From positions 310,001-374,000 of the forward strand of contig JAHLKT010000003.1 in the NCBI GenBank assembly GCA_020444545.1: a DNA stretch of 64,000 nt, written 5' to 3'. This document shows positions 45,533 to 51,041 of this stretch, piece after piece; the stretch's first letter is position 1, and each line of letters begins with the position of its first letter. This stretch comes from Desulfarculaceae bacterium. GTDB lineage: Bacteria > Desulfobacterota > Desulfarculia > Desulfarculales > Desulfarculaceae. Both the position numbers and the translations under genes were made by a program. The notes below the pieces were generated by a model. It ran no database searches. It saw only the letters and a list, made by a program, of their open reading frames with translations, and was not told the origin of the DNA.

Positions 45533-46723
45533 TTAGAAAACCAGGCTCAGTTGGCTGGTGACCAGATCGCTCTCGGCTCCGTCCTCGAAGTAGCCACGCT
45601 GATACTCCAGGGCCAGCACCACGTATTGGATGGGCTGCCAGGACAGGGTCAGGCCGTATTGCCGCTGGGGGAACTCCTCGTAGAGGTCGCCGCCGCCTTC
45701 CCAGCGCCCGGCCAGCACCCAGTCCTCGCTGAAGATCCAGGCCAGCTCCAGGCTGAAGGCCCAGGGCGAGGGGCTGGACTCGGGCGGGGCGTAATCCAGC
45801 TCGCCGGGGCCGAAGGAACCAGCGCGCATATACTCGGCCAAAAAGGCCAGGCCCTTGTATTCGGCCGAGGCGCTGAGCGACCAGCCCGCCACCAGGGAGC
45901 TCAGGCGCTGGTCCGGCACCTGCTCCTGCAAAAAACCGCTGCCGGCGATGTTGTTGGTGTAGGCACCGCCCACCCGGAGCTTGAGCCCGCCCAGGGTCTT
46001 GTCCGGCGGGGTCAGGTCGGCGCGCAACACAAAGTTGGCCAGCACCCCCCCGCTGTCGCCGGGCTCACGCACCGGCGAGTTCATGCCGGTGAGGCCCAGG
46101 CTGAACCACTCGGCACTCCAGCCCGCTTCGATGCCCGTGGCCTGGGTCTCGAACACCCCCTTGGTGATGCCGTCGCTGACCATGAAGCTCTCGAAAAGCC
46201 CCACCGGGGGATAGATGCGCCCGCCCATGAGGTAGCCCGGAAACTCGGGCGTGCGCCCCAGCACCACGAAGGCCTCGTCCAGTTTTATGCCGCTGTAGCC
46301 GTCCTCGTGCAAAAAGTGCAGCAGACCGCTGACAAAGGGCAGCGGGGTCATCTCCAGGAAAACCTCGGCCGTGGCCAGCACCGCATGGTCCTGGTGACTG
46401 CTGTCGCCCGCCGCGTCCTTGTCTTTCTGGTAGGAGGCCTCGAACTGGAACTGGCCCCATACTTTCCAGAACTCGCCCTTGAGGGCGGGCTCGGGCCACT
46501 CGATGACCGCGGGGGTTTCAATGGCGCGGGAGGCCTTGTAGGAGCCGCTGGTGGGCGGGCCTTCCACGTCGGTCCATTCTCCGCCGAGCACCCCGCCCCG
46601 CCAGCCGGGGCCGCCGCTCTCCTCGGCCTGGGCCCAGGCCGCAGGGGCGGGGGCCAGCAGCAGGAGCAGGGCCAGGCCCAGGGCCAGGGCGCGGCGCGCC
46701 CCCAGTTTGCGGCCCCGCCTCAC
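45533..46723 (-). CDS. LbtU-like outer-membrane porin coupled to the ECF importer
   Basis: A 396-aa beta-barrel protein with a signal peptide (ALALGLALLLLLAPAPAAWA). The segment KLDEAFVVLGRTPEFPGYLMGGRIYPPVGLFESFMVSDGITK...ETQ resembles the LbtU siderophore-porin family, and the C-terminus ends in Phe (QLSLVF) as barrel proteins do. Its GTG start overlaps the stop of the ATPase gene by four bases (46720-46723), so it is translated with the metal-uptake operon. It probably lets metal or a metal chelate cross the outer membrane for the ECF transporter. Confidence 0.8.
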   Translation of the reverse strand: MRRGRKLGARRALALGLALLLLLAPAPAAWAQAEESGGPGWRGGVLGGEWTDVEGPPTSGSYKASRAIETPAVIEWPEPALKGEFWKVWGQFQFEASYQKDKDAAGDSSHQDHAVLATAEVFLEMTPLPFVSGLLHFLHEDGYSGIKLDEAFVVLGRTPEFPGYLMGGRIYPPVGLFESFMVSDGITKGVFETQATGIEAGWSAEWFSLGLTGMNSPVREPGDSGGVLANFVLRADLTPPDKTLGGLKLRVGGAYTNNIAGSGFLQEQVPDQRLSSLVAGWSLSASAEYKGLAFLAEYMRAGSFGPGELDYAPPESSPSPWAFSLELAWIFSEDWVLAGRWEGGGDLYEEFPQRQYGLTLSWQPIQYVVLALEYQRGYFEDGAESDLVTSQLSLVF

Positions 46724-47370
46724 GCCGGCACCAGGCGGCCCGCTTCCATGCGCAGTACCGTGTCGCAGCTGCGATCCAAAAAGCCCTGGTCGTGGGACAC
46801 CACCGCCCAGGCCAGGCCGCTGGCCAGGAGCACCGACTCCAGGCGCTCCTGGGTGGCCTGGTCCAGCCCGGCGGTGGGCTCGTCCAGGAGCAGCGCCTGG
46901 GGCTGCATGGCCAGAACCGTGGCCAAGGAGACCATGCGCCGCTCCCCGCCCGAAAGATGATAGGTCACCCGGTCCTCGAAACCGGCCAGGCCCAGGCTCT
47001 CCAGAGTTTGGCTGACGATGGCCAGGGCCTCGTGGCGCTTCTTACCTAGGTTAAGCGGCCCGAAGGCCACGTCCTCGCGCACGGTGAGTGAGAAGAGTTG
47101 GTCGTCCGGGTCCTGGAAGCAGAAGCCCACCGCCGCGCGCAAGGGGCGGAAGTCCTTCTCCGCGCTGCACTCCTTGCCCAGCCCCCACACGCTGCCCGAG
47201 GTGGGTTTGAGCAGACCCATGGCGATGAGAAACAAGGTGGACTTGCCCGCGCCGTTGGGCCCCACGATGCCCACCCGCTGGCCGGGCCCCAGGGAGAAGC
47301 ACGCGTCTTGCAACACCGGCGGGCGGCCGTCGTAGGCAAAACTTATGTCCCGCAGCTCGATCAAATCCAT
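46720..47370 (-). CDS. cbiO: Energy-coupling factor ATPase of the nickel/cobalt importer
   Basis: A 216-aa ABC ATPase. Walker A is GPNGAGKST (37-45), the Q-loop is CFQDPDDQLFS (typical of ECF ATPases), the signature is LSGGE, and Walker B is LLLDEPTAGLD, followed by SHD. It is shorter than common CbiO (about 270 aa) because it stops after the nucleotide-binding core. It powers the complex with CbiQ and CbiM. The ATG at 47368-47370 lies inside the last codons of cbiQ (about 10-base overlap). Confidence 0.93.
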   Translation of the reverse strand: MDLIELRDISFAYDGRPPVLQDACFSLGPGQRVGIVGPNGAGKSTLFLIAMGLLKPTSGSVWGLGKECSAEKDFRPLRAAVGFCFQDPDDQLFSLTVREDVAFGPLNLGKKRHEALAIVSQTLESLGLAGFEDRVTYHLSGGERRMVSLATVLAMQPQALLLDEPTAGLDQATQERLESVLLASGLAWAVVSHDQGFLDRSCDTVLRMEAGRLVPA

Positions 47371-48158
47371 GATGCGCTCCCCAGGTTGAGGGCGATGAGC
47401 GCCGCGCCCACGGCCACGGCGGCCCAGCAGAAAATCGTGTCCCGCCGCGACCAATGGAAGTGGTCCAGCAGCCACAGGGTGCCGGTGAAGCCCCGGCAGA
47501 GCATGGCTTGATACACCCGCTCGGCCCGGTCGTAGCCCCGCACCAGGAGCACCCCCACCAGGCTGGCGTAGGTGCGCCAGGTGCGCAGGTTGTTGCCCGG
47601 CACGAAGCCGCGCACCTTCAGGGCCCAGGTGAGGCGGGCGTGCTCGCGCCTGAGCACGTGCAGATAGCGGTAGAAGAACAGGAACAGGTTGACCAGTTTT
47701 TGGGGGGCGTGATAGTGGGCCAGGGCGTGGAAGATGTTCTCCACCCTGCCGGTGCCCAGCAAGGCCAGAAGCAGGCAGAACACCGCGTTGGTCTTTAGGC
47801 TGATCAACAGGGCCAGGCGCAAGCCCTCGGGGTCCAGGCCCAGATGCCAGCCGTTGTTCCAGCCCAGCCGCCAGGGCAAAAACACCCACAGCAGCACCAC
47901 GAAGATGTTCACCGCGGCCAAGCGGCCCAGCACCCGGCTCCAGCCCAGGCGGGCGCTGGCCAAAACCACCAACCCCAGGCCCAGGGCGGCCAGGGCCACG
48001 GCCCAGCTCTGGCCCAGGGCCACCACCAGGCTGAGGCCCAGAGCCGCGCCCAGCTTGGCGCGGGGGTCCAGCCGGTGCAGCCAGCTGTGCCCCGCCGCGT
48101 GTTGCAAGGGGTCGGTGGGCTTAGGCTTTGGTTTGGGTTTGGGAGGGGGCTGGCTCAC
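47361..48158 (-). CDS. cbiQ: ECF transporter T component
   Basis: A 265-aa inner-membrane protein that couples the ATPase to the S component. Several hydrophobic helices at about 30-130 are followed by the coupling helices with the RxR-type motif region (RREHARLTWALKVRGF and GVLLVRGYDRAERVYQAMLCRGFTG). The N-terminus contains HDxDPRAKL-like HRLDPRAKLGAALGL. It starts eight bases beyond the stop of the upstream exported-protein gene. Confidence 0.93.
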   Translation of the reverse strand: MSQPPPKPKPKPKPTDPLQHAAGHSWLHRLDPRAKLGAALGLSLVVALGQSWAVALAALGLGLVVLASARLGWSRVLGRLAAVNIFVVLLWVFLPWRLGWNNGWHLGLDPEGLRLALLISLKTNAVFCLLLALLGTGRVENIFHALAHYHAPQKLVNLFLFFYRYLHVLRREHARLTWALKVRGFVPGNNLRTWRTYASLVGVLLVRGYDRAERVYQAMLCRGFTGTLWLLDHFHWSRRDTIFCWAAVAVGAALIALNLGSASWI

Positions 48159-48165
48159 GCGGTCC

Positions 48166-48768
48166 TCATTGCGGCTTGTTCTGCTGGCGGTAGCGCATGT
48201 AGGCGGCCAGGCCCAACAGGCCCAGGATGTAGCCCAGCCCGGCCAGCACGTCGCGCACCGTCACCCCCTGGTCCGCGCTCAGGCGGGCCAGCTGGGCCTT
48301 GAGCGGGGCCAGCTCCTTTTGCAGCAGCGAACTCAGCACCTGCTCCAGATCGGCCCGGCCCAGGGAGGCCCCCCGGTCCAGGGATGGCGGCACCGTGCCC
48401 TTGGGCTGGGCCGCCGGGGCCTGGGCCGGGGCCGGGGCCAGGCCCAGCTCGGCCGCGCTCAGGGTGTAGTCGGCCCGGTGACCCTCGCCCACAATGAGCA
48501 CCACCTTGTAGGGCGGCTTGCCTGCGGGCAGAGGCAGGGAGAAGCGGCCCTCCTTGTCGGTCTTGGCCTCGGCCAGCTTCTTGCCCGTGCCGTCGAGCAC
48601 CTCCACCGCACAGCCCTGGGCCTTGCCCCCGCCGGGGAAGTAGGCCTCGCCTTGCAGCTGGCCTCCTTCGGCATAGGCGAAGACGTTCACCTTGTGGGCT
48701 CGGGCCGGGGCGGCGGCCAGCAGCAGCGCGGCCAGGGCCAGGATGAAAAGGGCGCTTTTGCGGTACAT
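48166..48768 (-). CDS. NikL-like exported component of the ECF importer
   Basis: A 200-aa protein with a signal peptide (ALFILALAALLLAAAPARAHKVN). A carboxypeptidase-regulatory/Cna-B-like domain follows (VNVFAYAEGGQLQGEAYFPGGGKAQGCAVEVLDGTGKKLAEAKTDKEGRFSLPL), then a helical linker and a C-terminal membrane helix (GYILGLLGLAAYMRY). This layout and its position between cbiM and cbiQ match the NikL/CbiL accessory proteins of nickel ECF importers. The mature N-terminus after cleavage, near His, could bind the metal. Confidence 0.8.
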   Translation of the reverse strand: MYRKSALFILALAALLLAAAPARAHKVNVFAYAEGGQLQGEAYFPGGGKAQGCAVEVLDGTGKKLAEAKTDKEGRFSLPLPAGKPPYKVVLIVGEGHRADYTLSAAELGLAPAPAQAPAAQPKGTVPPSLDRGASLGRADLEQVLSSLLQKELAPLKAQLARLSADQGVTVRDVLAGLGYILGLLGLAAYMRYRQQNKPQ

Positions 48769-48779
48769 GGGCCTTCTCC

Positions 48780-49388
48780 TCAGGCCGAGCCGGGCCGCAG
48801 CATGGCCGGCCGGGCCTTGCGCAAATACTCCACGATCAGGGCGGTGATCACCCCTTCGATCAGCATAACCGGCAGATGGGCCAAGACCAAGGCCTGGGCC
48901 ATGGGCAAAAAGGCCTCGCCGGTTAGCCACAGGCTGAGCGCCACCAACAGGGCCGAGACCAGCACGGCCAGGGCGCCCGCTCCGAAGCCGGCAGCCAGGG
49001 CCAGGCCCCGGGAGTCCCGCCGGACCAGGGGCGCGAACAGGGCATAGCTGAGCAGGGCCGGTGCGGCCATGCAGAAGGTGTTGACCCCCAGGGCGGTGAG
49101 CCCGCCGTACTGGAAGAGCACCGCTTGCAGGGTGAGGCCCACGAATATGGCCGGAAAGGCGGCCCAGCCCAGGAGGATGCCCACCAGGCCGTTGAGCACC
49201 AGGTGCACGCTGGCCGGGCCGATGGGCACGTGGATCAGGCTGGCCACGAAGAACACCGCCGCCAGAAGGGCCACCCGGGGCAGGCGGTCGTAGTCCATCT
49301 TCTTGAGCCCCACGGCCAGCCCGGCCACGGTGAGCGCCGCTCCCCCGCCCAGCAGGGGCGCGGTCAATACGCCTTCGGCTATATGCAT
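48780..49388 (-). CDS. cbiM: Substrate-binding membrane component (CbiM/NikM)
   Basis: A 202-aa S component that binds Ni(II) or Co(II). The start MHIAEGVLTAP is the invariant CbiM/NikM N-terminus, whose amino group and His2 coordinate the metal. Membrane helices follow, including VGLKKMDYDRLPRVALLAAVFFVASLIHVPIGPASVHLVLNGLVGILLGWAAFPAIFVGLTLQA with the further metal ligand His. The neighbouring NikK- and NikL-like genes favour nickel over cobalt. Confidence 0.93.
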   Translation of the reverse strand: MHIAEGVLTAPLLGGGAALTVAGLAVGLKKMDYDRLPRVALLAAVFFVASLIHVPIGPASVHLVLNGLVGILLGWAAFPAIFVGLTLQAVLFQYGGLTALGVNTFCMAAPALLSYALFAPLVRRDSRGLALAAGFGAGALAVLVSALLVALSLWLTGEAFLPMAQALVLAHLPVMLIEGVITALIVEYLRKARPAMLRPGSA

Positions 49389-49419: not shown

Positions 49420-50187
49420 CTACCTGCCCAGGGGATATGCGTAGAGCCAGAGCACTCCGCCCAGCTCCACGTCCTTGTCCTTGCCGTCTTTTTTCAGCTT
49501 GGCGTCGTCGGTGACCAGCGCCGCGAAGCCCCACCAGCCGCCCCAGGGCATGGTGTAGGTGAACACTCCGTTCTGGTCGGTGTTCACCACCTGGGTGATA
49601 TAGGCCGGGGCCGGGGCGCGGCGCTTGCCGCCGGGGCTGTAGGCCTCCACCTCCACCATTGCCCCGGCCAGGGGCTTGCCCTTGTAGATTACCTTGCCGG
49701 TGAAGCTGTTGCCCGCGTAGAGGCCGTAGGGCCGGGTGAGGGGAATGATCTCGATCTTAGTGCCCACCGGCCGGTCCCAGCCTTCCTCCGCGCCCAGGGC
49801 GTCCACCACCGTCTTGGCGTGGTGGATGATGAAGCAGTCCTCGGCGGGCTCCCAATAGGGCTGGGGGGTCATATAGAGAATGTAGTCGCCGGGCCGCCGG
49901 ATGGGCAGGCTCAGGCTCCAGGCCTGCTTACCGCCCAGGCTTAGCGGCTTGAGCGAATCGCTGAGGTCGGTCTTTTTGCCGTCCAGCAAAACCCCGGCCC
50001 GGGGCTTGGCCAGGCTCATGCCCACGTCCTCCATGGGGTGCCAGAACATCAGCTTGGCGCTCACCACCTTGGGGTCGCTCTTGCCCACCAGGTTCTTGTC
50101 CGGGATGATCATGCCGAAATGGGCCAGGGCCGGGGATGCCGCCAGGCACAGCAGGGCCAGGCACAGGACGATCTTGGCCAGTTTCAT
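49420..50187 (-). CDS. NikK-like periplasmic protein (DUF4198)
   Basis: A 255-aa protein with a signal peptide ending in ALAHFGM, so the mature protein starts with His as in NikK. The body is a DUF4198 beta fold (MIIPDKNLV, LMFWHPMEDVGMSL, YKGKPLAGAMVEVEAYSPGG, DQNGVFTYTMPWGGWWGFAAL). Members act as auxiliary metal-binding partners of nickel ECF importers. AAGGAG precedes the ATG. It is the first gene of the operon NikK-CbiM-NikL-CbiQ-CbiO-porin, behind a strong promoter and a structured leader. Confidence 0.85.
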   Translation of the reverse strand: MKLAKIVLCLALLCLAASPALAHFGMIIPDKNLVGKSDPKVVSAKLMFWHPMEDVGMSLAKPRAGVLLDGKKTDLSDSLKPLSLGGKQAWSLSLPIRRPGDYILYMTPQPYWEPAEDCFIIHHAKTVVDALGAEEGWDRPVGTKIEIIPLTRPYGLYAGNSFTGKVIYKGKPLAGAMVEVEAYSPGGKRRAPAPAYITQVVNTDQNGVFTYTMPWGGWWGFAALVTDDAKLKKDGKDKDVELGGVLWLYAYPLGR

Positions 50188-50354
50188 GATGGGCTCCTTG
50201 GCTCGGGTGCGGGCGGCGGCGGGCCATGAAAAATGCCACGGCGGCCGAACGCCTCGGGGAAGCGTGGGGGCCTTCGTGGCCTGGGGTTTTCGCTATGTCC
50301 GGACTTGAAGGGTGATTCCCACCCGATTAAAGCCTACTGGCTTTGGGTTGGTTT
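50188..50354 (-). promoter_or_regulatory. Structured leader of the nickel/cobalt uptake operon
   Basis: The transcript from the promoter at 50355-50383 has a leader of about 160 bases. Three hairpins can be drawn: AAAGCC/GGCTTT (50329-50334 with 50339-50344), GGGTG/CACCC (50310-50314 with 50320-50324), and a long interrupted stem GCCACG-GGCC-ACGC against GCGT-GGCC-CGTGGC (between 50235 and 50280). It could be a riboswitch or an attenuator. It does not match the cobalamin consensus well. No gene lies between 50188 and 50528. Confidence 0.5.
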
Positions 50355-50383
50355 TTTATAGCCCCGCCCTCCCCGCCTGTCAA
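50355..50383 (-). promoter_or_regulatory. Strong sigma-70 promoter of the nickel/cobalt uptake operon
   Basis: On the minus strand TTGACA (50378-50383), 17 bases, TATAAA (50355-50360). The -35 box is a perfect consensus and the -10 differs by one base. It points toward NikK and lies back to back with the DtxR-type gene. Confidence 0.85.
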
Positions 50384-50410: not shown

Positions 50411-50424
50411 TTAGTATTTACTAA
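50411..50424. promoter_or_regulatory. Palindrome TTAGTATTTACTAA, candidate DtxR-family operator
   Basis: TTAGTA and TACTAA are inverted around TT in an AT-rich stretch between the divergent promoters. It begins 28 bases upstream of the operon's -35 box and 105 bases before the regulator gene. Metal-dependent DtxR/MntR regulators use AT-rich palindromes starting TTAG, so this is a reasonable site for the adjacent regulator. Confidence 0.55.
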
Positions 50425-50528
50425 GATAGTTAAAGACTTATTAAATTCGTTTTTTCTTGGCCACCTTGTTTGTCGAGAGTAATATATATTTTGCATGTCT
50501 AATAATTTTTCGGCGGGAGGCTTTAGCC

Positions 50529-51041
50529 ATGGCCGGAGTGCAGCGAGACGGTCTGTCCTCCAATTTGGAAGACTACCTGGAGACCATTTTCCATCTGGAG
50601 CGCGAAAGCCGGGTGGCCCGGGCCAAGGACATTGCCGAGCGCCTGGAGGTTTCCCGCGCCTCGGTGACCGGCGCCCTGAAGACCCTGGCCGACAAGGGCC
50701 TGATCAACTACGAGCCCTACAGCTACGTGACCCTCACCGAGCAGGGCAAGGAGATCGCCCGGGAGATCGACCGGCGCCACCATATCCTCAAGGGATTTTT
50801 CAGCGACTTTTTGCAGCTGGGCGCGGAGGCCGCAGAGGCCAACGCCTGCCGGGTGGAGCACGCCATGGACGAGGCGGCCATCAACCGGCTGGTGAACTTT
50901 TTGGATTTTCTGGAGCAGTGCCCCCGCACCGGGACCGACTGGTTGGAGTCTTTCGAGCGCTTCTGCCGGGGCAAGGCCAGCAAGGATAACTGCCGCCAGT
51001 GCCTGGCCGGTTGTTTGGAGCGCGGGGCCGAGATAACCTAG
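50529..51041 (+). CDS. Metal-dependent transcriptional regulator, DtxR/MntR family
   Basis: A 170-aa regulator. The N-terminal winged helix (LSSNLEDYLETIFHLERESRVARAKDIAERLEVSRASVTGALKTLADKGLI) and the metal/dimer domain (ITEQGKEIAREIDRRHHILKGFF, NACRVEHAMDEAAINRLVNFL) are typical. A Cys-containing tail (CRGKASKDNCRQCLAGC) takes the place of an SH3-like domain. GGGAGG precedes the ATG at 50529. Divergent to the nickel/cobalt operon with an AT palindrome between them, it is the likely regulator of that operon. The sensed metal is not certain. Confidence 0.9.
   Translation: MAGVQRDGLSSNLEDYLETIFHLERESRVARAKDIAERLEVSRASVTGALKTLADKGLINYEPYSYVTLTEQGKEIAREIDRRHHILKGFFSDFLQLGAEAAEANACRVEHAMDEAAINRLVNFLDFLEQCPRTGTDWLESFERFCRGKASKDNCRQCLAGCLERGAEIT

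Follow-up and report, generated by a model that had tools for sequence, protein, structure and literature searches.

The question raised by this locus is how the nickel-type uptake operon of a Desulfarculaceae bacterium is controlled. The window, a stretch of 64,000 nucleotides (positions 310,001 to 374,000 of contig JAHLKT010000003.1), carries the operon on its minus strand in the order NikK(DUF4198)-CbiM-NikL-like-CbiQ-CbiO. The nikK-like gene (49420..50187) encodes a DUF4198 protein (PF10670; 198.5 bits, cut-off 34), and the cbiM/nikM-like S component (48780..49388; PF01891), cbiQ/nikQ (47361..48158; PF02361) and the cbiO/nikO ATPase (46720..47340; PF00005) are Pfam matches. The ORF between cbiM and cbiQ (limits 48166..48930, with the true start probably further in) appears to encode a NikL-like periplasmic component, a name suggested by its position and sequence; Pfam gives it a weak bMG3 match only. 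The operon ends with an LbtU-type siderophore porin gene (NF033652; 45533-46723, minus strand; 158.8 bits, cut-off 90), and a DtxR-family gene (ORF 50457-51041, plus strand) diverges from it. Operons of the NikKMLQO type are assigned to nickel (PMC545781, PMC2667541), and some NikK1ML1QO operons are described as probable cobalt importers (PMC2667541). The NCBIfam label for the CbiM of the window is cobalt transporter. Nickel uptake in the delta-proteobacteria is attributed in PMC545781 to the DNA-binding repressor NikR, with the consensus site GTGTTAC-N13/14-GTAACAC. No NikR gene was found in the window's own genome, and the best candidate for a NikR site in the nik intergenic region agrees with the consensus in only 9 of 14 letters.

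The operon is preceded by a leader of about 160 nt, which a preliminary description had placed behind a near-consensus promoter. Both are confirmed. The sigma-70-type promoter (50355..50383, minus strand) consists of a -35 box TTGACA at 50383-50378, a 17-nt spacer and a -10 box TATAAA at 50360-50355. It agrees with the consensus in 11 of 12 letters, is kept in the leader of the congener and is the sole 11/12 site at 16-18 nt spacing in the window, where 0.05 would be expected per mononucleotide-shuffled window. The automated promoter scan omits it because the scan demands a T as the last letter of the -10 box. A perfect palindrome, TTAGTATTTACTAA, lies at 50411-50424, upstream of both the nik -35 box and the divergent DtxR-family gene, and is possibly an operator of the regulator which that gene encodes.

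The two perfect hairpins noted earlier are likewise present on the minus strand, and both are identical in the congener: hairpin 1, AAAGCC-AGTA-GGCTTT (50344-50329), and an extra hairpin, GGGTG-GGAAT-CACCC (50324-50310), of a type that was not recognised in the other nikK leaders inspected. Further downstream, 5' of the hairpin that we call hairpin 2, is the word ACATAGCG (50291..50298, minus strand). The motif CATARC occurs within 80 nt 5' of hairpin 2 in 15 of 75 leaders and in 1 of 75 antisense controls, often 10-17 nt before the hairpin; the count includes the duplicate leaders window/L002 and L019/L145. Taken as a whole, the leader is no more stable than expected (z -1.16, with 26 of 200 shuffles at least as stable), so the claim that its structure exceeds chance rests on comparison with other leaders and on the near-identity of the congener's leader, in a species whose NikK is 80% identical.

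The long three-part stem closed by GCCACG/CGTGGC, also named in the preliminary description, is indeed present at 50280-50235. That first reading overlooked the tail ATTTTT at 50234-50229, which sits 41 nt upstream of the first start codon, and the small hairpin contained in the 5' arm of the stem. Since the T-run follows the stem directly, the whole element (50229..50280, minus strand) looks like an intrinsic terminator. The small hairpin, hairpin 2 (GGCC-ACGAA-GGCC, 50269..50281, minus strand), is a putative antiterminator, and it is this A(N)GAA-loop hairpin, in competition with the long stem, that is the conserved part. Given the U-tail and the competing hairpin, we dropped the idea of the long stem as a ligand-binding part.

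Hairpin 2 and the terminator-like stem exclude each other in the predicted structures, one of which is a U-tailed terminator, as is general for terminator/antiterminator pairs. In the window, the unconstrained minimum free energy of the stretch is -28.5 kcal/mol and that with hairpin 2 forced is -18.5 kcal/mol, a gap of 10 kcal/mol. The unconstrained fold was the better one in all 53 aligned elements, with a median difference of 7.8 kcal/mol; 52 of these elements came from a search pattern that itself prescribes some of the terminator's base pairs but leaves the inner stems free. For this alignment, 58 distinct elements were picked by clade and gene context from 104 matches, and 52 were joined with the element of the window. 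Near copies (the second copy in L098, the second site in L120, L137 and L163) and two elements of deviating length (L100 and L141) were left out.

Relatives of NikK were found in 54 of the 60 genomes searched, the window's own genome counted. From these we assembled the leaders of 30 nikK loci, including that of the window, with up to 300 nt of upstream sequence and a few trimmed by contig ends. An A(N)GAA loop on a stem of at least 4 bp is present in 29 of the 30 leaders in the sense direction and in 2 of 30 antisense, and dinucleotide shuffles of the same leaders gave a mean of 1.7 and a maximum of 6. The one leader without such a hairpin is L021; in L008 there is a single, remote hairpin that is probably due to chance. 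For the five-letter form ANGAA the counts are 25 of 30 sense and 0 of 30 antisense, while among the alternative words built as xNyzw the highest count was 7. The 38 ANGAA hairpins carry 17 different 4-bp stems, so that in these sequences the loop appears constant and the stem varied.

Two or more A(N)GAA hairpins occur in 18 of the 30 nikK leaders. Their starts lie 47-115 nt apart in the relatives, and in the window 47 nt separate 50329 from 50281; leaders of the Thermodesulfovibrio type have two compact hairpins about 6 nt apart. We also looked upstream of 63 elements picked by clade and gene context, a set that omits the tandem-unit loci L085, L098, L142 and L144, the off-clade loci and L216. 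In the 150 nt upstream, 27 of the 63 hold a further A(N)GAA hairpin (antisense 2; mononucleotide shuffles, mean 1.9, maximum 6), and 38 of the 63 hold one with any NGAA or NNGAA loop, against 6 antisense. Second hairpins are therefore frequent without being universal. The AGTA loop of hairpin 1 falls outside A(N)GAA, and the leader of the window agrees strictly with the consensus in hairpin 2 only; by analogy with the pairs in relatives, hairpin 1 may be the first member of such a pair.

A simpler pattern, a hairpin followed by a T-run, matched in 30 of 40 relatives, including the window's own genome, against 6 of 40 for the reversed control; part of these matches fall inside genes and are due to chance. 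When named genomes were scanned, 95 stretches were obtained. Of the 104 matches mentioned above, 61 lay outside ORFs under crude ORF calling. Among the 80 of the 95 stretches for which titles were listed are Desulfobacterota (Deltaproteobacteria and Adiutrix MAGs, Desulfarculaceae and others), Thermodesulfovibrio, other Nitrospiraceae and unrelated bacteria. Genes of the metal-uptake set follow within 4.5 kb downstream of 50 of the 61 matches outside ORFs, a figure that is partly circular because some of the probe proteins come from the same loci. In a control set of 23 loci from clearly other groups, which omits L108, L118 and L130 as possibly in-clade, two had a probe match, both to a generic ABC ATPase only.

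The downstream genes encode TonB receptors, DUF4198 proteins, TonB/ExbB, FecCD, periplasmic binding proteins, CbiM/Q/O and NikA-like ABC systems, the last scoring 134.7 bits against the nikA model, below its cut-off of 393. Operons of FecCD and TonB receptors, and a chelatase-like gene (a cobaltochelatase/BchI-like match), are found after some of the elements. In L077 the element precedes a TonB-receptor/NikA-like operon, and L149 is from Thermodesulfovibrio sp. N1. In three loci of deltaproteobacterial MAGs, two to four tandem hairpin-plus-terminator units stand directly before a gene for an anaerobic Ni-CO dehydrogenase (L098 1660-1855, L085 1545-1645 and L142 243-354). The enzyme of L142 matches TIGR01702 with 513 bits (cut-off 478), and those of L085 and L098 were assigned by similarity. 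Upstream of the tandem units in L098, positions 1151-1367 match the HEARO RNA with 78.1 bits, the gathering score being 83. The second protein of L137 had been taken by eye for CooC-like, an assignment that we rejected when family searches returned a CbiA/MinD-type ATPase fused to a TrmO domain. At position 1023 of L080 a terminator-like element, GGTCAAGAAGGCCTATC..., precedes a transposase-like ORF (named by eye) and not a metal gene; similar sites occur in G026 and G033.

We built a covariance model that spans hairpin 2 and the terminator and ran it over 148 Desulfobacterota genomes of at least 85% completeness. It matched in 30 of them at E <= 0.01 and in 12 below 1e-3. The window's own genome has a second, stronger site that was outside the training of the model and has a GGCC-AGGAA-GGCC hairpin upstream; it precedes a methyltransferase gene whose family elsewhere precedes ExbB/TonB genes. 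Of 40 listed places we inspected 11, and 10 lead into genes of the metal-uptake set, two of these on the weak evidence of a methyltransferase or ExbB alone; L214 repeats the training element L097. The eleventh, in G081, looks like an ordinary terminator; no metal gene follows it, and the genome has NikR. We think that this match is false, although it is still counted among the 12. Some of the weak matches, most of which were judged by score alone, are probably false as well.

Strong elements and NikR are seldom found in one genome. The repressor was found in 71 of the 148 genomes, the other 77 having no match, and in 0 of 21 genomes chosen as carriers of the element. It occurs in one of the 12 strong-match genomes (G081) and in 70 of the 136 others (Fisher p = 0.005), and in 5 of the 30 genomes at E <= 0.01 and 66 of the 118 others (p = 0.00016); these p-values are optimistic, since relatives were counted singly and five of the 12 strong-match genomes are of one family.

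No family in Rfam accounts for the leader of the window. None reached its gathering score there, in keeping with the preliminary statement that the leader does not fit the cobalamin riboswitch and has no recognised Ni/Co riboswitch core, and the covariance models of the NiCo and cobalamin riboswitches had no match there. A permissive scan of the leader returned three chance-level matches to unrelated families (E 4.8-9.4, about 11-13 bits). Rfam searches of the window as a whole, of 17 loci among the 30 relatives and of another 9 loci likewise gave nothing relevant; the tandem repeats of L098 are covered by an AaHKsRNA41 match that stays below threshold. Literature searches in the open-licence part of PMC brought up no title or opening of an abstract with a description of such an element. 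We recognised no linked regulator gene among the ORF families recurring in at least three loci, a search based on crude ORFs labelled by BLAST to probes, with the unlabelled families partly annotated.

We read the leader of the window, with moderate confidence, as a transcription-attenuation leader of an undescribed family that depends on an RNA-binding regulator active at nickel shortage. RNA polymerase would start at the strong promoter and transcribe the small hairpins with their A(N)GAA-type loops. Hairpin 2 shares its bases with the much stronger putative terminator, so that the default would be termination and the uptake genes would be little expressed. Under nickel shortage hairpin 2 would be stabilised by an RNA-binding regulator, probably one that acts as a dimer on two hairpin loops; with hairpin 2 held, the terminator would be blocked and the operon read. 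The terminator is predicted to be by far the stronger structure, and the default should therefore be off, with hairpin 2 needing a stabilising factor. Uptake genes are wanted at metal shortage, which argues against a simple riboswitch turned on by metal; a regulator that binds RNA during shortage would meet this need, and the variable spacing of the hairpins and their free stems also favour it. The sequences themselves show the two mutually exclusive structures, the constant loop on varied stems, the metal-uptake genes and the rarity of NikR in genomes with strong elements. Four points of this reading are inferred: termination at the stem, nickel as the signal, activation by shortage, and a binding protein encoded at another locus. 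The earlier proposal of a metal-responsive leader RNA can be divided accordingly. That this is a regulatory leader is supported by the conserved loop on changing stems, the terminator that would exclude the last hairpin, and the recurrence before metal-uptake genes; the term metal-responsive is suggested by gene content and by the rarity of NikR in genomes that carry the element. A switch that is on at nickel shortage does not sit well with the control of CO dehydrogenase.

The hairpins could also bind a metal ion or a metal complex directly, without a protein. In favour of a riboswitch of this kind, no linked regulator gene recurs and neither ANTAR nor CsrA proteins can serve as general binders (see below), and the compact, adjacent hairpins of the Thermodesulfovibrio-type leaders would suit it. 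However, because hairpin 2 excludes the terminator, a stabilising ligand would turn uptake on in the presence of metal, and a spacing that ranges from about 6 nt between hairpins to starts about 115 nt apart, together with free stems, leaves little for a binding pocket; there is also no Rfam match. We regard this explanation as unlikely. We give slightly less credence to the same antitermination device responding to another signal, such as cobalt or cobalamin, a metallophore or carbon monoxide. It draws on the FecCD/TonB-receptor operons and chelatase-like gene that follow some elements, on CO dehydrogenase among the targets and on the cobalt-transporter label of the window's CbiM, but NikK-type operons dominate the leaders that revealed the element, NikR is rare in genomes with strong elements, and the scanned leaders gave no cobalamin riboswitch match.

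The remaining alternatives appear much weaker. It is very improbable that the pattern lacks a shared RNA mechanism and reflects no more than common terminators with hairpins due to chance, or else a palindromic operator in the DNA: GGYC-N5-GRCC is indeed a DNA palindrome, the folding z-score of the whole leader is ordinary and at least one strong model match (G081) looks like a simple terminator, but the loop word depends on the strand (29 of 30 leaders sense, 2 of 30 antisense) and is far above shuffles, the loop stays while the stems change, and first hairpins are found at a distance from the terminator. Least credible of all, to our mind, is that the hairpins are read by a known RNA-binding family of ANTAR or CsrA type. 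The layout resembles that of ANTAR targets, the window's own genome has two ANTAR genes, so that on that genome alone an ANTAR protein would be a candidate, and CsrA is present in 20 of 21 carriers. Against this, no ANTAR protein was found in any of the 34 genomes of the element-rich family f4, in which the simpler pattern matches 14 of the 16 genomes searched, or, at cut-off, in 18 chosen carriers, and loop length and linker are unlike those of ANTAR targets. On these counts we rejected ANTAR as the general binder; CsrA was rejected for the window's own genome, where the search gave no match.

The attenuation leader with its RNA-binding regulator thus appears to be a previously undescribed way to control nickel uptake through RNA, and the arrangement recurs ahead of metal importers in many related anaerobes without the usual nickel regulator. 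If so, it offers a mechanism for part of the NikR gap, the 77 of 148 sampled Desulfobacterota without a NikR match, and names a testable regulon of nickel importers, TonB receptors and Ni-CO dehydrogenase. More tentatively, and with rather less conviction than we have for the leader itself, we suggest that an RNA regulon takes the place of NikR in the nickel homeostasis of Thermodesulfovibrio and of some Desulfobacterota. A metal-sensing, RNA-binding protein would read A(N)GAA hairpins that stand alone, in pairs or in longer tandems, and would let polymerase pass the terminators of nickel-uptake genes and of some nickel-enzyme genes. If the binder is such a protein, it would represent a new class of metalloregulator acting on RNA.

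Several known systems resemble this leader in part. The NiCo (czcD) and cobalamin riboswitches are likewise RNA leaders of metal or cobalamin genes. They are junction aptamers, whereas the leader of the window consists of small hairpins and a terminator. CsrA/Rsm proteins bind A(N)GGA in hairpin loops. Those loops are of similar size and are read by a dimer, but contain GGA where the loop of the window type has GAA. The NikR regulon of the delta-proteobacteria comprises the same kind of targets, namely nikK, nikL and nikMQO (PMC545781). The ANTAR leaders, targets of EutV, NasR and AmiR, also have small hairpins with conserved loop residues, the second overlapping a terminator. According to PMC3369931, ANTAR proteins act on dual hairpins of a layout similar to that of the window, with hexanucleotide loops that have A at position 1 and G at position 4. 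The window shares the layout, with hairpins upstream of a terminator and the second predicted to be exclusive with it, the loop of hairpin 1 being off-consensus. The loops differ (AGTA and ACGAA in the window, A(N)GAA of 4-5 nt in relatives), as does the linker, which is about 5-12 nt in ANTAR targets, 47 nt in the window and long and variable in the Desulfobacterota; that of the Thermodesulfovibrio-type leaders, at about 6 nt, is within the ANTAR range. The element is therefore new in that it departs from ANTAR targets in loop and linker, occurs in many genomes without ANTAR genes and fits no Rfam family, and it is of a known kind in being a terminator/antiterminator leader that would work like ANTAR antitermination.
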